64,000 nt of DNA from Dipteronia dyeriana (taxonomy: Eukaryota; Streptophyta; Magnoliopsida; Sapindales; Sapindaceae): the NCBI GenBank assembly GCA_032871835.1, contig CM065300.1, forward strand, positions 66,475,192-66,539,191. The letters run 5' to 3'. Shown in pieces: positions 17,928-59,108 of the stretch. How positions within the stretch are numbered: position 1 is the first letter of the stretch; each line of letters opens with the position of its first letter. A program made the position numbers and the translations under genes. The notes under the pieces were generated by a model that was not told where the DNA came from, did not search any database, and worked only from the letters and a program-made list of their open reading frames with translations.

Positions 17928-18045
17928 TTAAAGAATTTTATTACATAGTAGTATATCACTACTTGCCATGTTATTTGATTAAAATATGTTATCTTTGTCT
18001 ACTGTAATTTATAAATGTCAATTAACTACAATATAAATTTGTACT
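17928..18045. repeat. Direct repeat copy 1 flanking Tat element 1
   Basis: 118 bases from 'ttaaagaattttatta' to the GTACT target site. A second 118-base copy with about a dozen differences lies at 29953-30070. The repeat is a pre-existing tandem duplication, far longer than a retrotransposon target duplication; element 1 inserted at the end of the first copy. Confidence 0.85.
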
Positions 18046-18893
18046 TGTTGTATGTAAATTTTACCAAACATACACATCATTGACAGGAAGAAAAAAATAG
18101 CCAGATGTATGCTTAGATGGACATCCGGGAAATATCCTACAAGGCATCATTAAAGAGGAGCAAGCCCGAGTAAGCATATACCGAATAAAGACCTACTCGG
18201 GACTGGCTAAAACAACGCATTCACTCGGGCTCAAACGGTACTACTCGGGACCATCAGGTAACAGTCTTACTCGGGAGTAAATACAACCCGAATAAGAACT
18301 TATCGTACGGGTTAAGTCATTAAATACGCGAAGATATTCTTCATGAAGAAATCCCAAATAATGGGCATTTGAGTTAGAAGAGTCCCCCAATCAGGAAACA
18401 ACCTGATTCCTTTTCGAATACTACATTCTTATAAGGAAACAAGTCAAATTGAACTACGCTACTAGAATCCCACTCAATTTCCATAAAGAGACTCCGAAAC
18501 CGGAAAGAAGACAAATCAACCTCAAACAAGTAACCAAATCATAATTAAATACAAATATCTTGTATTACTTGTACAAAGCAGATTAGGGTTCTATAAGCAT
18601 ATAAATAGACCCATAATCTGGCTCGAAAAGATATAGACAATATAGCATATAGTAATCACAAATAATACAGAGAGAAAAAGGGAGATCGAGAGCTTGTAAA
18701 AACATCTTATTCCCTTAGTGGATTTTGGCTTGGTTGATCTTTCAACCACCCGTGGATGTTTCTCCGACCATTGGAGTTTTACCACGTAAACCTTGTCTTT
18801 TTTACTCTCTCTGCATCTCTTTCTCTTTGAATCAATAGCTAAAATCCAGTCCTTGTTGGCTTTTCTGGCATAATCCAGAAAACGACGTCAACA
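18046..18893 (+). repeat. 5' LTR of Tat element 1
   Basis: Begins TGTTGTATG and ends CAACA, 848 bp. Contains repeated 'ctactcggga' motifs in the U3 part (about 18190-18280) and a TATA box candidate 'tataaata' at 18599-18606 followed by the leader, so transcription probably begins near 18635. Confidence 0.93.
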
Positions 18894-18941: not shown

Positions 18942-21000
18942 ATGGCTGGAAGCAGAAGTAGTTCGGGGAACGGCCAAAGATCACCAGGCTATTTCCATAC
19001 TGGCAATACTTCACAAAATCCTGCAGCAAACACAGAAAACCAACCTACGCACCTGGCAGGGATCCAGCAAGTTCCTCCAACCAGCAGAGATCTTACGCTG
19101 CGTTTCCAAGAGGCCATGCAGCAATTAGTGACGGACGCAGCAAAGGAAGGGATTGACCTACTGGCCGCATGAGCGCATACTCCCAATCCTCCACCCGTAA
19201 GGCTCCGTTCAATGGTGGTAGGACCAGGAATAACTATGCCAGAAACCAGAAGGAACTCTTCCCCGATCAATCAGGTTGGACAGAAAACACTAGGGGAGGA
19301 GAATCACCAAAAGCTGGATCGCAATCAAATAGTACGTGCCAGACATCGTAAATACGATCGACGCAGAGGACGATCATCATCAGATGACAGTGATCAACAC
19401 CATTGTAAACGTCATCATGGAGTCACACGAGGGTTCCGGCATCAGAGTGAAGAATCTGAGGAAAGAATGACAGTCACCCAACAGTTCAACCGTCAGGGAA
19501 GCCCGGTAGGGGACAGAGATATTACAATCCAGAGCCTGACTCGAGAAGTAGAGAATAATAGGCGACAGATGGAGGCACTCGTCAGACGTTATGGTTACAA
19601 CGATCTATCCGAGGACGACTCCGACAGTCCATTTACCAGGGAAATTTTACGGACCCCTTTCCCAGAAAGATTCAGGATGCCGCATGTGAAACAATTCAAA
19701 AAAGATACAGATCCAAAGGAGCACGTTAGGCGCTACAAAAGTGCCATGGCTCAATATGCCCGCAGTGACCCCCTGTTGTGTCTCAACTTTCCACAAACAC
19801 TTGGGGACACAGGCTCAAGATGGTTCGGAAGACTACCTCCGGCAAGCATCGGAAATTTCAGCGAGTTGAGCAGGAGCTTCTCAAGGCACTTCCTGAGCAA
19901 CGTTCACAGAAAGAAGTAGGTGGCCTACCTCTCTCAAATAAAACAGGGAAAGGACGAGTCGTTAAAAAAATTCTTGGGCCGGTTTGGCCAAGCAGTATCA
20001 GAGATTGGCAGCGCTAATGATGAAGTCATTATTGCTGCCTTCACTAATAACTTGCAGAATGGACGATTATCCATCGATTTGAGAAGAGCACGGCTGACAA
20101 GGTATGCCGACATAATGGATATGGCGGGAGGATACGCTCTGGCTGAGGAAGAAGAGTTAGCTACTGGAGGAAGCTATATGCATGGAGGAAAGCCCGAACA
20201 GAGAAATACTGAATCCAAGGGGCAGAATCAAAAAGAAAAACAGAAAGGGAACAGCAAGGAGAAAAATAAGGATGGGGGTAATGGGCGTAACGCCGAACGG
20301 TCCACAGAGAAATACCGCGGCAGATATACCAATTACACCCCTCTTCGGAAGAAACAAGAAGAAATTCTAGCCATCCTAGAAGAGAAGAATATGGTACAAG
20401 AACCGCGGCGACAGTCACAGTTCGCACGGAGAGATATAACCAAGTATTGCAGGTTTCATAAAGAGACCGGGCATGAAACTTCGAAGTGTTTTCAGCTTAG
20501 AGATTACATAGAAACCCTTATTCGGGAAGGGCACCTGCGGAATGTAGTCTTAAAAAAAGACGAGAGATCGGAAGTCAAGAAAGCCAAGGCTGATCACAAC
20601 CCTGGTCAAAACCAAAGAGCCAGCCCCAAAGCCAATGAAGTAATACATACAATCTTCGGAGGACCTTCTACTGAGAGGAGCAACCGAGAACGAACTCAGG
20701 AAGTCCGAGAAGCAGTAGAAGCCAGGAATAACTTCGACGTGAATTCGGTTGAACCAGACCCGAAGAGGTTAAAGGAAGGATGGGACCCGATAGTCTTCAC
20801 AGAGGCAGATTCCCACGGCGTCGATGTTCGACCCAATGACGCTTTGGTTATAAGTGCCCGGATTGGCCATAGGGAAGTCCGAAGAATTTTAATAGATAAT
20901 GGGAGTTCAGCAGACATCTTAAACGTGGCCGTATACGACCAGCTAAGATTGGACCGAAAATATTTACAGCCTTTCCATACTCTATTAAGAGGATTTGGGG
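18942..21000 (+). pseudogene. gag: Gag and protease of Tat element 1, broken
   Basis: Gag would form the particle and protease cleave the polyprotein. The ATG at 18942 gives MAGSRSSSGNGQ. The same frame runs through the capsid region (about 19620-20160: PFPERFRMPHVKQFKKDTDP, then LSQIKQGKDESLKKFLGRF) and a Lys/Glu-rich linker. A C/H knuckle-like motif CRFHKETGHETSKC lies at about 20446-20490, and the protease active site DNGSSADIL at about 20895-20920. The frame is cut by TGA at 19170-19172 and TAG at 19917-19919. A one-base insertion near 21000, seen by comparison with element 2, moves the rest of the protease (IEVRSLGTVKLPV, then the GRPFLN region) to another frame. Confidence 0.9.
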
Positions 21001-23375
21001 GAAATAGAGGTCAGGTCACTTGGGACAGTCAAATTACCTGTGAAGATCGGAACGGCAATATGCCAAAGGACTGTCCTGCTCGACTTCGTGGTAGTTGATT
21101 TGGATAATTGGCCGTATAATGCGTTATTGGGTCGGCCATTCCTAAATAAAACAAGAGCTGTGACGGCCACTTATGCATTAATGATCAAATTCCCAACAGA
21201 ACAAGGGGTTGGGATAGTCAAGGGATCCCAAGAGATGGCCCGAAGAGCAAACCTGTCGGTATACAGAGACAAGCATGATGCCGAACAAGCGTGCACCATA
21301 ATGCAGCCAAATGAGAATGAAGAATCCTTGTCATTCGAACTAGATCCAAGGGAGGGCTCGAATGAATACAAGACAGAAGTGGCCGAAATACTACTCGAAG
21401 AAGACAAACCAGACAGGAAAGTGAAGATCGGGGCAAACTTGGAAGAAAAAATCAAGCGAGAATTGACCAATTTGCTCAAAGAATACAAAGATGTATTCGC
21501 CTGGAGTCATGAAGATATGATCGGAATAGATGCCCGAATAATATCCCATCACCTCGCAGTAAGCCCGAATGCCAAACCGGTAGTACAAAAGAGAAGATCG
21601 TTCAATCCTGAAAGAAGTCAAGCAATCAAACAGGAGGTGGAAAAGCTACTAGTGACGGGATCAATCAGAGAAGTCAGCTACCCCAGTGGGTCGCTAACGT
21701 AGTCCTCGTCCAGAAGAAAAATGAACAATGGAGGATGTGCGTAGATTTTTAAGGATCTAAACAAGGCGTGTCCGAAGGACAGCTTCCCACTCCCAAGAAT
21801 AGACCAGCTGGTGGATGCCACAGCAGGTCATGAACTGCTCATCTTCATGGATGCTTACTCGGGATACAATCAGATCCGGATGAACAAAGCTGACGAATAA
21901 AAAACAGCTTTCACAACGGATCAGGGTTTATATTGCTACACAGTGATGCCCTTCAGTTTAAAAAATGCAGGAGCCACGTACCAAAGGTTGGTCAACAAGA
22001 TCTTCACTCGGCAAATAGGAAGGAACATGGAAGTCTACATTGATGACATGTTGACTAAAAGCGTCTCAGCAGATGATCATGCCCGCGACCTATGAGAAAC
22101 ATTTGATGTATTAAGAAGGTATCAGATGAAATTAAACCCAAACAAATGTTTATTCGGAGTCCACTCGGGAAGATTTTTAGGTTTTCAAGTCCATCAAAGA
22201 GGAATCGAAGTTAATCTAGAGAAGATCCAGGCTTTGCAGCAAATGACTTCACCTAAAACATTGAAAGAGGTACAGCGCTTAACAAGGTGTTTAGCCTCCT
22301 TGAGAAGATTCATCTCAAAGGCTACAGACAGGTGCGCGCCTTTCTTCAAAGTGATCAAAAAAGGAAAAGACCTGGAGTGGAATAAAGAGTGCAAACAGGC
22401 ATTCTTAAAGATAAAAGAATACTTGGGGCAAGCTCTCATCCTCTCAAAACCACAAAAAGGGAAATACTTCAGCTGTATCTATCAATAACCGAGCTTGCAG
22501 CAAGTTCAGTCTTAGTCAGGACAGAAGATGGAGTACAAAAACCAGTGTATTATACAAGCAAGGCACTCCTACCGGCCGAGACCAGATACTCACAGGCAGA
22601 AAAAATGGCCTTAGCATTGGTTTCAGCTGTAAAAAAACTGAGACCATACTTTCAGGCTCATACGATCCAGGTTCTCACCAATTGCCCATTAAGACAAATC
22701 TTACAAAAACCAGAGATATCAGGAAGACTTACTAAATGGGCAATCGAGTTGAGTGAATTCGATATATATTATGTCCCCAGAACTTCCCTCAAAGGACAAG
22801 CAGTGGCAGACTTCATAGCCGAGTTCACAGAACCGAACCTGGAAGCAAAAAAATTGTTGGATAGAAGTTTCCAATGGAAATTATATGTTGATGGTTCTTC
22901 GAATACTCATGGCAGCGGGGCAGGGATCGTAGTTCGCACCCCAGAAGGAGATGATGTTGAATGTGCGATGAGATTTGATTTCAAAGCAACCAATAATCAG
23001 GCTGAATACGAGGCATTGTTAGCTGGACTCAGAGTCTGTATAGCTCTTGGGGCAGACGAAGTGGAGATATTTAGCGATTCACAGGTAGTTGTCAACCAGG
23101 TTATGGATGAATACCAGGCTAAAGATGAAGGAATGGTTGCCTACCGTGACATCGCAAAACAGCTCCTCCAAAAATTTAAAGAATACAAGATCGCTCAGAT
23201 CCCCAGAGAAGAAAATGAAAAGGCAAACGCTTTATCTAAATTACCATCAGCAACAACCTCATCAGACCAAAAACCATTCCAGTTGCACACCTCCTTAAAC
23301 CGAGTACGGCTGAACTTAAGCATTTGGAAATTTCAGAAATCTGAACACTGCAAGACGGTTGGATGGTCCAATTGA
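21001..23375 (+). pseudogene. pol: RT and dual RNase H region of Tat element 1, broken
   Basis: After the protease tail (to about 21200) comes a linker and reverse transcriptase from about 21500 (VFAWSHEDM, then LNKACPKDSFPLPRIDQLVD and the active-site VYIDDML at about 22030). RNase H follows at about 22490-22830 (TRYSQAEKMALALV, VLTNCPLRQIL). The second, archaeal-type RNase H lies at about 22865-23250 (LYVDGSSNTHGSGAGIV, NNQAEYEALLAGL, FSDSQVVVNQ). The doubled RNase H is a Tat-lineage mark. Breaks: a one-base loss near 21675, one extra T near 21748, stops at 21898 and 22094, a frameshift near 22450 and another near 23267. Catalytic residues remain readable, so decay is by frame damage and not by loss of domains. 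Confidence 0.9.
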
Positions 23376-24598
23376 GAAGGTTCCTGGAAGAATGCATATT
23401 CTCGGAAGATCCGATATTAGCAAAGCGTATCAGGTATCAATCGGCTAGATACACCATGATCGGAGGAGAATTATACAGAAGAGGGTTTTCTCGAGCTCTC
23501 CAGAGATGTATACCAGAAGAATATGCACATCGAGTACTTCAAGAGATCCACGGAGAAGTTTGCGGGAACCACATTGGGGGTAGGAGTCTGGCGCATAAGG
23601 TACTCAGGCAAGGCTATTATTGGCCTACACTTTTCTCAGATGCACAGCAATGGTCGGAAAGTTGCAATACCTGTCAAAGAATTGCCAACGATATCCGACA
23701 ACCCCCAGAAAAGCTCAAAAATCTCGCTGCCCCTTGGCCATTCGCCATGTGGGGCCTAGACCTGATCGGGCCAATGCCAGCTGGAATAGGGGGTGGAGCG
23801 AAGCACGCCATAGTTGCTGTCGATTATTTCACAAAATGGGTCGAAGCTGAAGCATTGGTGCATATCACGGAAGCCAACACCACGAATTTTGTAAAGAAAA
23901 ACATACTTTACGGGTTTGGAATTCCGGACACTATAATCACCGACAATGGCACTCAGTTCGATAACCAAAGGTTCAGACAATTGTGCGAGAAGTATCATTT
24001 TGCCAACTACTATGCAACACCAGCTCATCCACAAACAAACGGGCAAGTAGAAGCAGTAAATAAAATTATCAAGCACACAATCAAAGCAAAATTAGATGAC
24101 AAAAAAGGAAGCTGGGTTGAAATGCTTCCTGAAGTATTGTAGGCATATCGGACGACAGCAAGGACTTCAACAGGAGAAACTCCGTTCAGCCTAGCATTCG
24201 GAATAGAAGTTGTCATCCCCATAGAAACATCGTATGCGTCCCCCCGGGTCAGGCTATACGATGAAGGGAAAAACATTGATACACTGCTACAAAGTTTGGA
24301 TGAGCTAGAAGAAAAAAGGGAAAATTCCCGAGTAAGAAATGCAGCTTATCAACAAAGAGTGGCACGCCACTACAACTCTCGTGTACAGATCAGAAAATTT
24401 CAGTTAGGAGACCTGGTGCTCAGGAAGGTGTCACTAAACACAAATAATAGAGCCGCGGGATCCCTGGCTGACAAATGGGAAGGTCCATACAAGATCGAGG
24501 GGATAGCTGGCCATGGAGCTTATTGGATTGCTCGACCCAATAGAGGGGTGTTACCCCGACCGTGCAATGCCCAATATCTGAAGATTTTCTATCCTTAA
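23363..24598 (+). pseudogene. int: Integrase of Tat element 1, one premature stop
   Basis: Integrase joins the cDNA to host DNA in the nucleus. The N-terminal HHCC zinc motif is at about 23540-23680 (HGEVCGNH, then CNTC). The DDE core has Asp in GLDLIGPMP, Asp in ITDNGTQF and Glu in NGQVEAVN (about 23750-24060). The C-terminal part (FQLGDLVLRKV, WEGPYKIEGI) ends at a stop at 24596-24598 after QYLKIFYP. The only break in this domain is TAG at 24140-24142, where element 2 has Trp (VLWAY). It is the best preserved gene of the element. Confidence 0.92.
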
Positions 24599-25140
24599 AA
24601 TATATATTTATATTAAACATTCTATTCTTTTTCTAGTCAGGACAATATTAGTCAGAATAAATACTAAAACTATAATATTAATCTTTGTTGATTTTTCGCA
24701 GTAATAAATAAAACTAAGAATTTCCAAAAGGAAAGCACCTAGCTCGAGATCTCCTAAAAGCATACGACAGTATGAAATAGAAGAGTATGATAATAAGAAC
24801 ATGCAAATAGAATTCTTAGGACCATCAAATCCCGAAAGGGCGGAGAAGCTCGTAGGAGCATGCCAGCCGAGCAGGGTCAAAATGATCTTCGCAAAAAGGC
24901 AAACCCGGTACACCAAACTGGAAAAATGCTCGGGTCGCTATCGGGAGAAATTCCGGTGAAATGCGTAGCTGTGTTGAAGCAACTTTAAAAAAAAAAGAGC
25001 TCAACGATTTGGCAAACCCTTGCGCATAAAAAATAGGGAGACGTCCTTGGTATTGCGTAAGGACTCGAACGCATAATCATGGTGAGCCTTGATATAACGT
25101 TCGGGTAGCAACTGGGTATGAAACATAAGTGCAAACTTTC
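24599..25140 (+). other. Noncoding spacer after integrase, Tat element 1
   Basis: Untranslated segment between integrase and the tandem repeats. Parts are clearly matched in element 2 (about 54827-55290, for example 'gggcggagaagctcg'), so it belongs to the element. Stops occur in all frames. Confidence 0.6.
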
Positions 25141-25440
25141 CTGTTTCAAGATGACTCGGTTAATAATAAAGAATCCAGTTTAATGAGATACTTGGCAATT
25201 GAAGTCATTCGGGTAACAACCGGTTTAATAAGATACTCGGTTAAGTTACCCGACCACCAGCCAGTTTAATGAGATACTTGGCAATTGAAGTTATTCGGGT
25301 AACAACCGGTTTAATAAGTTACTCGGTTAAGTTACCCGACCACTAGCCAGTTTAATAAGACACTTGGCAATTGAAGTTATTTGAATAACCGGTCAAATAA
25401 GATACTCGGTTATGATTCCGACCATCAGCCAGTTCAATAC
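25141..25440. repeat. Tandem repeats in the 3' region of Tat element 1
   Basis: About two and a half copies of a unit near 110 bases built on 'ccagtttaatgagatacttgg' and 'taataagatactcggtt' elements. Element 2 has a degenerate version of the same motifs at about 55310-55530. Tandem repeats near the 3' end are common in Tat-type elements. Confidence 0.75.
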
Positions 25441-25676
25441 AACCTCCGGAAAAAAAAATTAACACAAACCATTCAAACTCAGAAAACCATATTCTATTGC
25501 TCTTAAAAAGGATGGTTACAGTTCAAAGAAATGATTCTTTACATAAGCAAAAAAATAAAGAATCTATCTGAATCTCCTACAAATTTACAAAATCAAGGTT
25601 GCGAGGATTTCAAGCCTTTACCAATACTCGGGTCTGACACCATCTCGTATTCACGAAGCAGGCTCTCATTAGACGG

Positions 25677-28597
25677 CTAAGTGAAGTCATCAACAATGTC
25701 GTCCCTCCACTAGCTGTAATCATTACCCAGGATTGGTCTGACATCCGGGATTACACCCTCGACACACTCTCGACTTGCGTAAAAGGTCAAGAGAGAGTGC
25801 TCGGACGGAATCTCTAAATGCATAGGATGGGGCTCCTTGCCTTGACTACGGCAGTAGGCTCTCAATTCCTTCATCTGAATCCGAAAAGATTCCAAGGACC
25901 GATCCACATGGTGTTTGATTGACAGCTCCCAGTTAGCATGAGCTTTCTTGGTTGCCCTACTCTTCACTTTGAAGAATTCGTTGGCCGAAACTAGCCCACG
26001 TTGAAATTCCCGAAGAAGTAGGGCATCGTAAGCAGGGGATCTTTTAAAACGATCCACCCCTTGAACTTCCAGCTCCAACCTGGCCTCTTGGGAAAGGGAT
26101 TCAATTGTCAGCACTTGGCGCTCCAAATCTTCAATTTTTTGAACATACGCCGACTTCGCCTGCTCTGCCTCCTGCTCGGCCTTGAGCATAGACTCTTCAG
26201 TAGAAGAAAGAAGGTTTTGAAGCGAAGCAACCTTCTCCTATGCCAAAGATGCCTTGTCTTCAGCTTCAACCTGCTTTGCCAGGAAATTGTCGGAAAATAT
26301 CTGCACCGAACCAACCTCTTGCTGGTAAGCCTGCTCAGCTCTAGCACGACCCTCCTCACTCGCCTTTAGCTGAGCCTCCAGACGCTTCATCTGATCAGCC
26401 TGACATTGTTGCGCCTGAACAAGCTCAGCAAATTTGTCAACCATCTGTAAAAATATATATATATATATATATATATATAAACATATATACTTAGAAATCC
26501 AACGAAGGCAAAACAGTAAAGGAATCAGAATTAGCTACTTACATAAGATGTGCCATTGAAAAAGTTTTGGAGACGTTCGGGTAGTGAACCATCTCTAAAA
26601 CCGCTCCAGCGGTCTTCCCCAATATATGCCTGACCAGAGGACATCTCCTGGAGCATATCTTTCGGAGAAAGGGATAAGGGAACCCCCGAGGGTTGAGTTC
26701 CCAGATTTCCAGACTCGGGGACATGAGAAGCTCTATTTGGCTCTAGGGATGGAGAGGAAACCCCCGAAGGTTCAGCCCCCATATCTCCAACCTCGGGGGT
26801 AAAGGAAGTCCTACTTGGACCTGAAGTGACATCTGTCGATACTCTGGCACCTACACTCGGGGCAATCTCATCCGCAACATCTTCATCGCTGGAGTCAATG
26901 AAAGTGACTACCAGAGGAACTTTGAGAAGACGATGAGGCGAACTAACTGCCTTTCTCTTCTCACCCCGAGAACGGTGGAAGAGATCAGCAGAAGAATCTT
27001 CCAGCAAATCATCCTGAAAACACTCAAAAAGCTCGGCAATGACAGGCATTTGATCCGACAAGACGCTACCACCATCGCCAGCTTCAGACAGTCCAACAGG
27101 CTCTCCACTTGGACTCTCACACTGCCTCTCCCTATTTTCAGGCAGTTGTGTCACGGTCGGCTCGCCTTGGCCACTTGAACCAGCGAGATCCTAAGCAGAA
27201 AACTGAGCACCCCGATCAATGCAGTCGGGGATTTGCTCAGCAGTATCAATTTCCTCATCAGGCTCGGGTGGAGCAATACCCTCATCGCCCTGACAGGAAG
27301 CCTCCTTCCTGCTCGCTTGAAGAATTGCCTTCACCTGACGAGCCTGAAAATCGCAGACAACGTCCGTATCGAACACTAAACAAAAAAAGTAATAAGAGGG
27401 TTAGAAAAGGAAATGGAAAAACAGAGAAACACAACAGAAATGGGGCTAGGTTAATTACAACGCCTGCAATGGCTTGAAACCTGTTCGAAGAAACAGAGTT
27501 TGATCAAGTCGTCCTCTTTGAAAAGATAGTTCTTGCTTCTCTTTTCCAGAGTACGGATAGCAGCCCGGGCCAACCTCTTCAACTCTGAATCGTTATAATC
27601 AATTGTTTTCTTATTCCACGTCTCAGGGGAACAGAAGAAGCGGGGAACATTCAGCACCATTCGGGAATCCCCAAATCGAACAGTGACGTCCAGCCCGAGA
27701 GTCCCTCCAGGAAAAAACCAACTGTTCTTCCAGAACTTGTTGGATGTGGGGAATCCCCATATAAATCCCTTCTTTTTCGGGTCATCAGAAGCCTCGACCC
27801 CCCCTATTCGCCTTCACTTCTTTAGGGATCCAACTTTCCAAAGGAGTAGATGCAAGAAAGTAGGTCCCCGTTTTACTAACCTGCCTCAGCGTAAAGAAAT
27901 GTCTGATTTCATTCGGGGAAGGCGGTGAAAGGTTCATTCGGCTGAACATGTGCCATATGCACATCAAGACTTTATAACTATTCGGGGCCAACTGAGCTGG
28001 GGCTATCCCTGCTTCAGCTAAAAACCGGGCAATAAAAGAATGAAGGGGAAGTGTGACGCCGCAGCAAAGCATCGATCCGTAAATCGCGATCATCCCCTTA
28101 GAAGGATTCCATACGGCTCTACTCCCCGCAGGAACCAAAGTGACTGAGTCGGGCAAATCAAATCGGGATCGGTATTTCTCTATCTCAGCTGGCCCGACCA
28201 CATTCGGCTCGATATCAAAGCCACTCGGGCGAGTGTCATAAAACGAAAGGCAAGACGCCTTGTGTACATTAGCGTCCCCCTCATTAACAGTTTGTTCCCC
28301 AGTCTTAACATTGCTCGAGTCGTGCTTGTATACCTTGCTTGTGCTTTGATGTTTACCCATCCTTCGAGAAGATACCCTGTGATCAGAAATATCAGAATCA
28401 GAACTAGAGGAAGAACTCGATACATGGCTGAAAGTGACGTCAGGGTAAAGCCCAGAAACATCGACCTCTAAAAATGGAGGTTCATCTATTGGGATATCCC
28501 CCAGTAATCGTCTAATGCAAGATACTAACTGGAAATCCCCACGCTCTAATGCATCAAAAGCAATTTTAAAGAGACGATGACGGGAAGATGGCCTCAT
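25677..28597 (-). pseudogene. Spliced antisense gene of Tat element 1 (gypsy-type transposon domain)
   Basis: On the strand opposite to gag-pol, a three-exon gene reads from ATG 28597. Exon 1 (28597-27459) holds a conserved domain resembling Pfam PF04195 'putative gypsy type transposon' (FDLPDSVTLVPAGSRAVW, then IYGSMLCCGVTLPL, APNSYKVLMCIWHM). Intron 27458-27376 (83 bp, GTAATT..TTTAG) is phase 1. Exon 2 (27375-26543) is acidic, Ser/Pro-rich, with an RGEKRKAV basic patch. Intron 26542-26445 (98 bp) has the donor GTAAGT. Exon 3 (26444-25677) is a Gln/Glu/Ala-rich coiled coil, then KRSPAYDALLLREFQRGLV. The protein would be over 900 residues. Defects are a frameshift near 27795 and stops near 27190, 26240 and 25710. 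The role is unknown. Element 2 has the same plan, which strongly supports a real gene. Confidence 0.85.
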
Positions 28598-29072
28598 TAA
28601 AACTAACCTTGAATTGAGACTGACGCAAGATCTTCAAAGCGGAGAGTCACGAACTTCTGAATGAAGAAATTTGAGTTTAAAGAAATTTCTGCTGGATTTT
28701 TTAGAATAAACCAACAGTCGCTCAACAAAGGATTTAAAGGCGAGATGGCACAAAACCTTAGGGTTTCAAAGCGGGAAAAAGTTATGACGAAACCAGATGA
28801 CGTTGGCAGCGTTTGGATGAACGCAAAAGTCACTTCTCATAAACGATATTGAAAAACGAAGAGACAAGGGACACGTGTCAAGACAAGAAGTAGCCCTCAA
28901 TCGTCAAAACTTTGAAACGTCGCTATCATTTAAGATCTTGCGTGACAAAGCAAATCGAAATTACAGAGTCACCATTAAAATACATCATTATGGCAAGACG
29001 GTTTTTCTGACAAAAGGAATTCAAAACGATTAAAATATTCTTGCCCGAAATAAAGTTTTCTTGGCAAAAATA
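28598..29072. other. Spacer between antisense gene and 3' LTR, Tat element 1
   Basis: About 475 bases just upstream of the antisense start and next to the polypurine tract. Its position suits a promoter for the antisense gene, but I see no convincing TATA box on the minus strand. The homologous spacer in element 2 is 58619-59108. Confidence 0.5.
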
Positions 29073-29083
29073 TTTTAAGGGGG
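29073..29083 (+). other. Polypurine tract of Tat element 1
   Basis: 'ttttaaggggg' three bases before the 3' LTR; primes plus-strand DNA synthesis. Element 2 has the same motif. Confidence 0.8.
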
Positions 29084-29086
29084 TAT

Positions 29087-29932
29087 TGTTGTATGTAAAT
29101 TTTACCAAGCATACACGTCATTGACAGGAAGGAAAAAATAGCCAGGTGTATGCTTAGATGGACATCCGGGAATTATCCTACAAGGCATCATTAAAGAGTA
29201 GCAAGCCCGAGTAAGCATATACCGAATAAAGACCTACTCGGGACTGGCTAAAACAACGCATTCACTCGGGTTCAAACGGTACTACTCGGGACCATCAGGT
29301 AACAGTCTTACTCGGGAGTAAATACAACCCAAATAAGAACTTATCGTACGGGTTAAGTCATTAAATACGCGAAGATATTCTTCATGAAGGAATCCCAAAT
29401 AATAGACCTTTGAGTTAGAAGAGTCCCCCAATTAGGAAACAACCTGATTCCTTTTCGAAGACTACATTCTTATAAGGAAACAAGTCAAATTGAACTACGC
29501 TACTAGAATCCCACTCAATTTCCATAAAGAGACTCCGAAACCGGAAAGAAGACAAATCAACCTCAAACAAGTAACCAAATCATAATTAAATACAAATATC
29601 TTGTATTACTTATACAAAGCAGATTAGGGTTCTATAAGCATATAAATAGACCCATAATCTGGCTCGAAAAGATATAGACAATATAGCATACAGTAATCAC
29701 AAATAATACAGAGTAAAAGGGAGATCGAGAGCTTGTAAAAACATCTTATTCTCTTAGTGGATTTTGGCTTGGTTGATCTTTCAACCACCCGTGGATATTT
29801 CTCCGACCATCGGAGTTTTACCACGTAAATCTTGTCTTTTTTACTCTCTCTGCATCTCTTTCTCTTTGAATCAATAGCCAAAATCCAGTTCTTGTTGGCT
29901 TTTCTGGCATAATCCAGAAAACGACGTCAACA
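29087..29932 (+). repeat. 3' LTR of Tat element 1
   Basis: 846 bp, TGTTGTATG to CAACA, about 97% identical by eye to the 5' LTR. It is followed directly by the second GTACT. Confidence 0.93.
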
Positions 29933-29952
29933 GTACTTTAACAATGTAAAGA

Positions 29953-30070
29953 TTAAAGAATTTTATTACATATTGGTATATCAGTACTTGCAATGTTATT
30001 TGATTAAAATACGGTATCCTTGTCTACTATAATTTATGAATGTCAATTAACTACAATATAAATTTGTACT
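29953..30070. repeat. Direct repeat copy 2 flanking Tat element 1
   Basis: Second copy of the 118-base sequence at 17928-18045. The similarity extends past it ('aacaatgtaaag' follows both copies once element 1 is removed), so the duplicated unit was about 133 bases. Confidence 0.85.
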
Positions 30071-31910
30071 AGAACAATGTAAAGTCTATAAGGCCCCGTT
30101 TGTTTCTTAGGATAGGATGAGAATTGGACTAATTTAAAACCATTTATCATGTTTGGCCGAGTCATGTGATGGGATTATTTCTCATGTTTGGCCGAGTCAT
30201 CAGATAAAATAATCCCATCAATTTTGATTTATCATATTGCAATGGGATAAATCAATCCCAACCAAATTGATGTATTTGAATCCCATCTTCTTTCTTTCTT
30301 TCTTCTTTCTTCAACACAGCTTCTTCTTCAATACAGATGCTTTCTTCTTTCTTCAACGTAGCGGTAGAGAAAGAAAGAGTGTCAATCTCCTCTCACAAGT
30401 CTTCTCAATTGAATTCTTCCATGTTTGAATTAGTTTTTTTTTGTTGTTGATTTGATCATTTCCTCTCCAATTTTTTAACTTGTGCTTCCCTACATAATTA
30501 TTTGACTCTAGTTAGCTCAAAAAAAAAAGTAAATACAGATATTTAAAAAAAATGAAAAAAAAAATTCAGATTTTGACAGAAAAAAAATGCATGTTGTGGT
30601 GGTTATGGTCGACGGTGGGACGGGTGGGTTTGGGTCTAGTGGGATATATGGGTTTGTGATGAATTAATTTGTTTTTAATCTAAAAAATGATAATTTCCTA
30701 ATTTTTAATTCTATCTTATATTGCACCAAACACATTATTACTTTATTTTTAATCCTATTATATGTTGCACCAAACATAGAATAGTACTAATTTTTGTCCA
30801 ATCATATCTCATCCCATTCAATCCTATATCATTCCATAAAAATAAGAGAGAAAATCAAAAGTAACCACTGAAGTTGTTAGAATTTCGTTTATAAACACAT
30901 ACGAAATTTTATTCATTAATAGCCATATTTTTTAGAAATTACCTCAATGTCCTCATATATATATACTTAAAAGGTAAATAATAGTGGAAAATGGTAGGCT
31001 TTTCTTTTACTTTCTTGAAACACAATCGTCGAGAGGTGAGGGAAATAGGAGGTTTGTCGCCGTAAGGTTGAGGAAGAGAGTGACGTCGACATCGGCAGAT
31101 ATCCCCGTCGAATTCTTCATCGTTGTCGTCGGTGAAGTGTTGATCGTCGTCAAGACTATTGTTGTCGTCGCGGAGTGGCAGAGTGGAGGAGATCGAGATC
31201 GAGATCGTGGTCATCGACATTAACAGTGATCGTGATGGTCGGCGAAGTGTTGATTTCTGTTTGAAGGTTTGGTTTTGCTCGTCACAATTTTGTTTTTTTT
31301 AAGAACATTTGATTTTTGTGGATTTTTTTCATATGAATTTGTTCTTAGGTCAATTTTGATTTCATTTTTTAGGGTTGTGGTTAATTTGACAGTGAAGTGA
31401 TAAAGAAATTTGTTGTGAACATTTGAATATATAAATGTTGTGATTTATTTTCTGGGCAGCCAACCAGAGAAAGCTATGTTCATGTTTACATGTATATATA
31501 TTGTAGTTTGTTGTGATTGTGTTTGTTGTTGGATTTTACTAAAGAGTGGGAATTTAGCTCTCTAAAATTGAAGTCCGTTTTGAGCATCTTAATGTCGAAG
31601 CCAAAGCATATGTAGAAAGCAGAGCTTTGCCTAATCTGCAAATTAATTTTGTGAATTACATTATATATGACCATGCTTGGATGTCAAATTTTAATTTACA
31701 TTTCAACTCTATGTTTTGGCTTGAAGGGTTTCTTGAACTATCTTCATATTATTCCAAGTAGAAAGAAGCAGTGAAAATCCTTAATAATGTCAGTGGAATA
31801 ATAAAGCCGGGCCGGTGAGAACCCAATTTGTATATTATCATTTCATTTTTGTTTTTAATTTTCTACATTGTTTGCAATTACTCATGCAGTCATTTTTTAT
31901 TGTTTTTGCA

Positions 31911-55780: not shown

Positions 55781-58618
55781 TCAAGTAATCGTATCGACCG
55801 AATCATCCATCCATTTGTTGTAATCTTCTCCCAGGATCGGTCCGACATCAGGCACCAAACCTTCCACGCCCGACTCCTGGCTGGCATAAAAGGTCGAGAG
55901 GGAATGCTCTGATGGAACCTCCAAATGCATGGGATGGGGATCTTTGCCTCGACTACGGTAATAAGCTCTCCACTCCTTCATCTGAGTCAGAAGAGATTCC
56001 AGGGATCGATCCACATGATTCTTGATCGACAGCTCCCAGTTGGTTCGGGCTTTTTCAGTTGCCCGATTCTTGACCTTAAAAAATTTACCAGTTGAAACTA
56101 GCCCTCGCTGAAATTCCCGAAGGAGAAGGGCATCAAAAGCAGGTGATCTTTTAAAACGGTCAACCCCTTGGACTTCGAGTTTCTGCCTGGCCTCTTTGGA
56201 TAGGGATTTGACTGTCAAAGCTAAGCGCTCTAAGTCTTCAATCTTCTTTTCATACGCCAACTAGGACTGCTCTGCTTCCTGTTCGGCTTTAAGCATTGAT
56301 TTCTGGGTAGAAGGCAACAAGTTTTGAAGTGGCATAGCCTTCTCCTCTGTCGAAGAAGCTTTTTCCTCGGCCGCCACTTGCTTTGCCAAACAGTTTTCAG
56401 CAAACACTTGGGCGGACCCAACTTTCTTTTGAAAAGCTGATTCAACCTGAGCCCGGCTATCCTCACTCTCTTTCAACTGAGCTTCAAGATGCCTTATTCG
56501 ATCAGCTTGATGTTGCTGCGTCTGAACCAGCTCAGCAAACTTGGCCACCATCTACAAGGAAATAAAATTAAAAATCTAGCAAGTAAGCAAGACGATTGAA
56601 GAGTTGGGAATAACTTACATAAGATGCGCCGTTAAAAATATTATGAAAACGACTCGTCAAATAAGCGTCCCTGAGGTGGCTCCAATAATCATCCCCGATG
56701 AAAGCCCGACCGGATGACATCGCCCTAAGCATATCCTGGGGAGAAGGATTGGAAGGACCTCCCGAAGATTCAGCCTTTAGATCTTCAACCTCGGGGGGAA
56801 AATAGCCTATGTTTGGGTCATAAGTCTCCGCACCCGCCGACGCTTCAACATCAATGCTCTAGGGAATCTCGGCCCCGGTGTCTTCATCACTAGAGTCAAT
56901 GAACGAAACCACCCGAGGAACTTTATGAGGATGAGCGGGAGAATCGACCGCCTTCCGTTTCTCGGCCCCAGAGCGATGAAAGCAGAGATCAGCTGAGGGA
57001 TCTTCCTAAACATCATCCCGAATAGATTCAAAAAAGTAGGGATCTGTATTTACTTGTCCCTCAGAGGTTTTACCTCCATCACTGACGTCCATCTTCTCGG
57101 TAAGGACCACAACCGGGGAGCTCGATTCAATAAGCCCCTCACCAAGACCATCGCTCTGCCTCCCTCCGTCTTCAGGCAATTCCTGAGTATGGCCACTCGG
57201 ACCACTAGACTCCCCTATGGTCGTCCAGATGACTTCCTCGGGGACACTTTTGGGAATCTGCCCGTCAACCTCATTAGGGTCCTCATCTGACTCAGGTGGG
57301 GTAATGCCCTCTTTGCTCTGACGATAAGCTTCTTTTTGGCTTGCTTAGGGGATTGACTTCACCTGACAAGCTTGAATGTCACAGACGATGTCCGAGTCAT
57401 ACACTTAAAAAAAAAAAAAGAATAGCGTCAGTATAAAAAGCAACACGAGAAAAATGGAGGGGGGGGGGGGGGGGGGGGGGGGGAGAGAGATCACCTACAT
57501 CGCCTGCGATAGCCTGAGATTTGGCTAAAGAAACCAAGATCTATCATCTTCTTCTCGTTAAAAAAATAAATCATGCTCCTTTTTTCTAGAGTGCAAATTG
57601 CTGCCCGAGCAAGTCTGGTCAGCTCAGTATCGCTGAATTCAAGTTTTTTCTTGTTCCATGCCTTAGGGGAACTAAAAAAATGGGGAACTTTTAGCACAGC
57701 CTGAGTCTCCACACCCGAAAGAGTAACTTCCAGTCCAAGATTCTCTCTAGTGAAAAATAAACTGTTCTTCCAATACTTGTTGGACGAAAGGAATCCCCAT
57801 ACAAAGCCCCTCTTCTTGGCATCATCGGAGGTATCAACTCCCCGATTCACTTTTTCCCCCTCGGGGACCCAACAATCTGGCGGGTTAGACATGAGAAAAT
57901 AAGTCCCTATCCGACCAGACTGCCTCAGCGTGTAAAAGTGCCTGATTTCACTCGGGAAAGGCGGTGACAAATTCATTCGGCTCCACATGTGCCACATGCA
58001 CATCAAGATCTTGTAGCTGTTCTGAACCAATTGGGATGGAGCAATCCCTGCTTCAACCAGAAACCAGACAATAATCGGCTGAAGAAGAAGAGTAACGCCG
58101 CAACAAAGCATTGACCCATAGATTGCCACCATGCCCTTTGGAGGGTTCCATGTGGCTCTATCACCAGCAGGAATCAGAATAATTGAATCGTCCAAGTCGA
58201 ATCGAGCATAATATTTCTCGATCTCATCCTTCCCGACCACATTCGGCTCGACGTCATACCCACTCGGGTGATCGACAAAAAAAAAGAGTCGAGATTTTCT
58301 GAACCCCTCTTCGACGTCCTTCTCATTAATAATCTGCTCCCTGATCCGGACGCTGCCCGAGTTGTGCTTATGAACTTCACTTTTACTTTGATGCATTCCC
58401 ATCCTCGATCGGAGAGGTACCCTGTAATCAGAAACGACAGATTCAGAACTAAAACGGATGTCAGGGTAAAGCCCAGAAATGTCGACTTCTAAAAAAAAAG
58501 GTTCGTCAGGGGGAATCTCCCCCAATAATCTACTAATGCAAAAAACCAGTTGAAAATCCCTAATATCAAGCGCTTCGAGAGCTATAGTACAGAGTCGACA
58601 ACGGGAAGTCGGATTCAT
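55781..58618 (-). pseudogene. Spliced antisense gene of Tat element 2 (gypsy-type transposon domain)
   Basis: Reads on minus from ATG 58618. Exon 1 (58618-57499) is open without a break for over 370 residues: ALEALDIRDFQLVFCIS, then IPAGDRATWNPPKGMVAIYG, CMWHMWSRMNLSPP. The domain resembles PF04195. Intron 57498-57404 (95 bp, GTAGGT..TTAAG) sits at the same codon and phase as in element 1 and contains a 25-base G run (read as C). Exon 2 (57403-56619) has EKRKAVDSP and several stops. Intron 56618-56552 (67 bp, GTAAGT..TTGTAG) matches the second intron of element 1. Exon 3 (56551-55781) is a coiled coil, then KRSPAFDALLLREFQRGLVS, ending at TGA 55783. Exon 3 has one stop near 56260. Exon 1 is far better kept than gag-pol of the same copy. 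The role is unknown. Confidence 0.87.
57459..57483. repeat. 25-base G homopolymer
   Basis: Uninterrupted run of 25 G inside intron 1 of the antisense gene of element 2; absent from element 1. Length may be affected by sequencing. Confidence 0.85.
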
Positions 58619-59108
58619 TAAAACTAACCTTGAATGAAGAAGCCTGATGCAAAATCTTCAACGGAGAATAGGGATTTTCTGCGTAAAGAAATATGGGCTG
58701 GAAAATTTATGGTTTGAGTCTCTGAGAATGAACCAACACAACTCTTTTTGGTGGAGAATTTAAAAGGGTAATAGCACGAAACCCTAGGACCCTCAAGGCG
58801 GGAAAAATCAAAGACAGATTTGATGACGTAGGCGGTGCACTAGGAGACGCGTAGATCGTTTCTCATAAATGGTATCGAAAAATGAAGCGGTATAGGACAC
58901 ATGTTAAGAGAAAAACTGGCCAAGGCCGTCAGAACTCCAAAACGTTGCTATCATTGAGATCTCGCGTGAGGAGGCAAATCGAATTTACATGGTCATCATT
59001 AAAACATGCCATTATGACAAGACATTTACCCTGGCATTAAAGAGATGTAAAAATTGAAGGGTTGATTAAAATACTTTTGCCCGGAACGAAACCTTGTTGG
59101 GTAAAAAT
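58619..59108. other. Spacer between antisense gene and 3' LTR, Tat element 2
   Basis: Corresponds to 28598-29072 in element 1. The likely location of an antisense promoter; no clear motif. Confidence 0.5.

Follow-up and report, generated by a model that had tools for sequence, protein, structure and literature searches.

Antisense open reading frames (ORFs) with a Transposase_28 domain (TRP28) are already known as a mark of Retand retrotransposons (PMC11963269). They were present in 97% of recently active clusters in that survey (Vicient 2025), whereas another found Transposase_28 in 23% of Retand elements (PMC6317226). The former took ORFs from 600 bp upward, plus shorter ones with the domain, and the latter from at least 250 codons. 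Passages of a further paper (PMC7264820) describe maize Grande gene23, which has a promoter of its own and whose product is nuclear, Silene Retand ORF4, which carries Transposase_28, and the Smc-like PvRetro13 ORF2, and point out that antisense and spliced transcripts need to be looked for. Here we analysed a 64,000-nucleotide stretch of the Dipteronia dyeriana genome (contig CM065300.1, positions 66,475,192 to 66,539,191; hereafter the window), in which a long terminal repeat (LTR) retrotransposon of the Tat clade, element 1, carries a gene of three exons and two introns opposite to gag-pol. This gene is probably a decayed copy of a real spliced accessory gene of a Retand-type Tat element, for which we propose a regulatory role like that of HBZ, the antisense gene of human T-cell leukemia virus type 1 (HTLV-1).

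The gene agrees in position, orientation and Pfam domain with the TRP28 ORF of Retand elements described in PMC11963269, and, like Grande gene23, Retand ORF4, the RIRE2 antisense ORF and PvRetro13 ORF2 (PMC7264820), it lies antisense between pol and the 3′ LTR. It differs from the latter four in that the passages on them give no intron structure. It also differs from the survey of PMC11963269, where ORFs are counted apart (104 antisense, 57 with TRP28, 11 with Smc, besides other domains), in that the pieces here look like exons of one gene. The word "intron" does not occur in the main text of PMC11963269, where the matches shown for "splic" and "exon" belong to the reference list. Among the titles and abstracts listed, none deals with introns in Retand antisense genes, and an earlier description is possible in full texts (Gomez-Orte 2013, Kejnovsky 2006, Steinbauerova 2011).

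The original prediction had placed in element 1 a three-exon antisense gene with two GT-AG introns, and both introns were found where it had put them (Table 1). Their phases are compatible, phase 1 being followed by phase 0. A homologue in a second element of the same window (element 2, at 55.8-58.6 kb) has both introns in common with it, and the gene has the same position and orientation in the two elements. The same prediction had let the gene of the window copy end at 25677, and here it has to be corrected. The reading frame of exon 1 is broken near 27.8 kb in this copy, and exons 2 and 3 contain in-frame stops; as it stands, the copy cannot encode the full product. Among 28 copies of the family (the window copy plus the 27 that follow it among 40 scored matches, with 3288 first-look candidates), the stop codon at 25677-25679 occurs in only 2, whereas 27 have one at 25593-25595, towards which similarity to Acer proteins continues past 25677. 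With this family stop the product has about 940 residues. The three exons are stop-free through the examined stretch (to 25680) in 1 of the 28 copies, so open frames exist in the family; we single out none.

The splice sites are well kept among these copies. GT was found at donor 1 in 26 copies and at donor 2 in 26, AG at acceptor 1 in 27 and at acceptor 2 in 26, and 22 of the 28 keep all four dinucleotides. Intron lengths range from 62 to 96 nt for intron 1 and from 33 to 108 nt for intron 2, truncated introns included, the ends of the gaps are T-rich in most copies, and in 26 of them readthrough into intron 1 would be stopped after at most 3 codons. Ten further loci, hand-picked by match start and end from 45 scored and not random, were inspected over short stretches. 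Intron 1 was canonical in all 10, and in the seven that served for intron 2, GT and AG were each present in 6.

Predicted proteins of other species carry the same joints. Three protein searches yielded 135 different proteins among the matches listed, mostly from Acer saccharum (one listing gave 120 of 151); a word-based search finds near relatives only, so this bias is uninformative on other plants. By a pattern test, 63 of the 135 run from the end of exon 1 straight into the start of exon 2, with the joint in the same position. Another 11 read on at joint 1 as [R/C]K, fitting a phase-1 N/GTAAG donor, and have no immediate intron 1 stop, as otherwise they could not have been seen; one protein ends at the joint. 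Homology to exon 3 was present in 54 of 100 proteins examined. The exon 2/3 joint reads ..ASY/MVAEM.. in 10 of the 16 whose match begins at the first exon 3 residues, and ..FFNGTSY/MVDKF.. in the window copy. As a separate observation, P0070, a predicted protein of Acer yangbiense, has RanBP2-type zinc fingers in addition to the exon 1/2 part and is possibly a fused gene model.

These data bear on whether the pieces could instead be three separate small antisense genes with the gaps as mere spacers. Such a layout would suit the way in which ORFs were scored singly in both surveys (PMC6317226, PMC11963269), and element 1, too, lists as separate ORFs. However, in most copies the gaps start with GT, end with AG and have T-rich ends, with the phase preserved. 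Exon 2 starts in mid-codon, and in many Acer models the joints between the pieces fall on the same residues. We hold this alternative to be very unlikely.

Whether introns had been lost from any copy was examined by pattern search. Allowing up to 3 mismatches, no intron-less exon-exon junction was matched anywhere in the genome at either junction, by patterns that would miss older, diverged intron-less copies. The exon 1-intron 1 boundary, in contrast, gave 315 matches with up to 2 mismatches (161 forward, 154 reverse), and its reversed control gave none. The absence of intron-less junctions and the boundary matches fit the view that every new copy is templated by the sense strand. The introns would persist because only sense RNA is reverse transcribed, in which they read CT..AC and stay. 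These counts favour the original argument that antisense introns escape sense splicing.

Selection was assessed by comparing the exons of elements 1 and 2, one pair of families. The ratio of nonsynonymous to synonymous substitution (dN/dS) was 0.196 (bootstrap 0.148-0.248; 864 codons), with 0.231 and 0.207 for the two parts of exon 1, 0.274 for exon 2 and 0.099 for exon 3; the decay of both copies should have raised the ratio. Differences at codon positions 1, 2 and 3 numbered 223, 180 and 402, and the third-position excess of the predicted frame was present in each exon. As a control, a 122-codon stretch of integrase gave 0.094, so that exon 3 is as constrained as this stretch. The introns differ in length between the two elements and are identical at 38 of 83 and 43 of 65 aligned positions. 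The exons thus appear to be under purifying selection between families, and the introns free to diverge apart from their splice signals.

The same comparison speaks to the possibility that antisense RNA itself acts, by pairing with sense RNA for small-RNA silencing or by hindering sense transcription, the frames being incidental. An RNA role was raised beside a protein role in PMC7264820, the broken window copy could still be transcribed, and close copies lack codon bias (see below). A dN/dS of 0.196 with a third-position excess in every exon, and an exon 3 value that matches that of integrase, argue against it, and we regard it as quite unlikely. Even less probable is a captured host gene fragment in neutral drift. 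The window copies are indeed decayed, and their introns are short, as is typical of host genes. Yet the position and orientation of the gene agree between the two elements, with constraint between them, and PMC11963269 found no Transposase_28 similarity outside transposable elements, which makes capture highly improbable. That the introns are common to element 1, element 2, the genome copies and many Acer models, with constrained exons and no intron-less junctions found, makes a shared spliced structure very probable.

Several points weigh against the reading of the locus as a spliced, protein-coding gene. The splicing is predicted from DNA, and the window copy is broken. The Acer sequences are predicted gene models and not cDNAs, so they attest conserved sequence and plausible joints, not splicing; among the 135 proteins listed, 30 have other joints (one of them P0015, at junction 1) and 30 lack the exon 1 end by pattern. 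The boundary control covers intron 1. Between elements 1 and 2, the synonymous divergence (dS) of 1.0-1.6 is above 1 and near saturation, so the exact dN/dS values are rough. Among the 28 close copies no codon bias was seen, either in singletons (253/238/234 by codon position, P=0.66) or in variants present in at least 3 copies (58/44/57, P=0.32). Variants in at least 3 copies, per site, amount to 0.043-0.077 in the exons, against 0.062 for intron 1 and 0.179 for intron 2; by this measure the variability of intron 1 does not exceed that of the exons. PF04195, the Transposase_28 profile, falls below its cut-off in P0015, P0036, P0042 and P0100, and a Pfam search up to E=1 finds nothing in exon 1 of element 2, even though the exons of the two elements align throughout. 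AlphaFold models of element 2 exon 1 were of low confidence, with a mean pLDDT of 53 and 48, the first without a PDB match better than E=2.2. Finally, when the tail of exon 1 and the head of exon 2 were used as profiles, no convincing match was obtained in top Transposase_28 loci of this genome (L009-L038 and L059-L078).

The missing codon bias among the 28 copies can be read as neutral decay after a burst of insertion, and a selection test must then compare families. The original prediction had asked for selection across many copies, where there was no signal; it emerged only between elements 1 and 2. The genome search for Transposase_28 produced 5926 first-look candidates; 150 of them were scored and are listed as above the cut-off. 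The 20 longer loci examined do not look like element 1 where exon 1 meets exon 2. They appear to belong to other, decayed families, and therefore speak neither for nor against the introns.

The domain content of the product could be outlined from the exons. In element 1, exon 1 matches PF04195 with E=3.1e-6 and 27.8 bits against the Pfam cut-off of 26.2, as had been anticipated when a search with this profile was suggested. A C-terminal coiled coil had also been proposed. Exon 3 begins with about 130 proline-free residues, 30% of them charged, and has a weak heptad periodicity that was reached by 10 of 200 shuffles; a coiled coil is thus plausible. The family product would consist of an N-terminal Transposase_28 part from exon 1, a variable linker from exon 2, and a predicted coiled coil with a conserved module from exon 3. 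Retention of intron 1 would give a second product of about 380 residues with the Transposase_28 part only.

We suggest that a host polymerase would start a transcript between the gene and the 3′ LTR, that the host would splice it, and that the product would enter the nucleus to regulate element expression or a nuclear step of the cycle, as HBZ does. We advance this tentatively, at close to but under an even chance. A nuclear or regulatory role is drawn by analogy (PMC7264820; Discussion of PMC11963269), and an HBZ-like nuclear regulator is our leading guess. The full-length protein might instead act in particle assembly, reverse transcription or integration, since its conserved C-terminal module, and the coiled coil that is plausible there, might let it assemble with Gag or integrase. 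The nuclear location of the Grande antisense protein (PMC7264820) speaks against this, and we consider it unlikely, although a more serious contender than the alternatives above.

If the gene is transcribed in this manner, its promoter would lie in the upstream region. By eye, this region of element 1 contains a telo-box AAACCCTA, TTTAAA, an E2F-like motif TTTCCCGC and a G-box. Such sequences occur in promoters of dividing cells. The motifs are only partly kept in element 2. Over the segment 28598-29083, elements 1 and 2 agree in 333 of 482 aligned columns (69%), and the two longest identical blocks are 18 nt at the purine tract and 17 nt just before the ATG. The latter block, ATTCAAGGTTAGTTTTA on the antisense strand (28598-28614 in element 1, 58619-58635 in element 2), is donor-like. 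A divergent Transposase_28 copy, L071, the one found by a motif scan of 20 Transposase_28 loci, has the same CAAGGTTAGT (CAAG/GTTAGT), followed by an intron-like stretch and then another possible start. A leader intron may begin at the conserved GTTAGT before the ATG, for which no convincing acceptor was seen in element 1.

The assignment of element 1 to the Tat LTR retrotransposons, also part of the original prediction, agrees with its domain order. On the plus strand, RNase H (PF17917) is followed by RVT_3 (PF13456, E=4.2e-22) and integrase (PF17921, PF00665), the integrase lying in the next frame after RT_RNaseH and RVT_3. We take RVT_3 to be the archaeal-type RNase H (aRH) domain. An aRH between RNase H and integrase is the Ogre/Retand arrangement (PMC6317226), and it is found in element 1, as expected of an Ogre/Retand-type member of the Tat clade. 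An antisense Transposase_28 ORF, a Retand feature, lies between pol and the 3′ LTR (PF04195; 27785-28597, minus strand). The distance from pol to the 3′ LTR is at most about 4.9 kb (24142 to 29087, the broken pol end being uncertain), inside the range of 2.9-6.6 kb reported for Retand (PMC11963269). By domain order and antisense ORF, element 1 belongs to Tat and shows features of Retand.

The LTRs of element 1 are 97.06% identical over 849 bp by blastn, and GTACT, read by eye in the flanks, forms a 5-bp target duplication (18041-18045 and 29933-29937). The LTRs of element 2 are more diverged (86.3% over 904 bp, blastn). The flanks of element 1 at 17928-18058 and 29953-30083 also have in common a 131 bp stretch, 89% identical and essentially outside the LTRs. 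In intron 1 of element 2, a long C run on the antisense strand (G on plus) is tolerated at 57459-57483.

Table 1. Positions of the antisense gene and of associated features of elements 1 and 2 within the window.
Feature	Position	Strand	Remarks
Exon 1, element 1	27459..28597	-	frame break ~27.8 kb in window copy
Transposase_28 (PF04195) in exon 1, element 1	27884..28078	-	residues 174-238
Intron 1, element 1	27376..27458	-	GT-AG, 83 nt, phase 1, GTAATT..TTTAG
Exon 2, element 1	26543..27375	-	ends conserved, middle variable and low-complexity; one in-frame stop
Intron 2, element 1	26445..26542	-	GT-AG, 98 nt, phase 0, GTAAGT..TACAG
Exon 3, element 1	25593..26444	-	predicted coiled coil, then conserved C-terminal module
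Upstream region, putative own promoter	28598..29065	-	motifs by eye
Exon 1, element 2	57499..58618	-	frame open
Intron 1, element 2	57404..57498	-	95 nt
Exon 2, element 2	56619..57403	-	3 in-frame stops
Intron 2, element 2	56552..56618	-	67 nt
Exon 3, element 2	55781..56551	-	stop 55781-55783; one earlier in-frame stop
5′ LTR, element 1	18046..18893	+	blastn against 3′ LTR; edges read by eye
gag-pol region, element 1	19212..24142	+	several broken frames
Purine tract, element 1	~29066-29083	+	
3′ LTR, element 1	29087..29932	+	blastn against 5′ LTR

What may be new here is the spliced structure, possibly linking ORFs that have been listed apart, together with the constraint on all three exons in one pair of elements. 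If these are exons of one spliced gene, ORF surveys have split it and underrated its conservation; one survey asked whether such divergent extra ORFs have a function. Over a hundred predicted protein clusters of the gene are already public, mostly as "hypothetical protein". An antisense gene under selection with unpurged introns would also be a clean way to test which strand of RNA serves as the template for new copies. A wider proposal is that, throughout Retand, the separate antisense ORFs (Transposase_28, Smc-like and other coiled-coil) are one ancient spliced gene, with a long/short protein switch by retention of intron 1 and possibly an extra leader intron, and that it is a plant counterpart of HBZ that evolved independently. 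This is possible, though on the unlikely side.

Other systems resemble the gene in part. Ogre has an intron in a Tat element (PMC6317226), on the sense strand, whereas element 1 has two, both within a gene on the antisense strand. A homing endonuclease gene in a group I intron (PMC9548176) is antisense, interrupted by a spliceosomal intron and expressed, a layout like that of the element 1 gene, although the element and the protein are of another kind and the intron is single and of 47 nt. HBZ of HTLV-1 (PMC1459196) likewise lies antisense in an LTR element; it undergoes alternative splicing and codes for a basic leucine zipper protein. No sequence relation is claimed. Splicing has been demonstrated for HBZ and is predicted for the element 1 gene. 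Transcripts of HBZ start in the 3′ LTR, and the conserved ATG of the element 1 gene lies about 490 bp internal to the 3′ LTR (PMC1459196 for HBZ).
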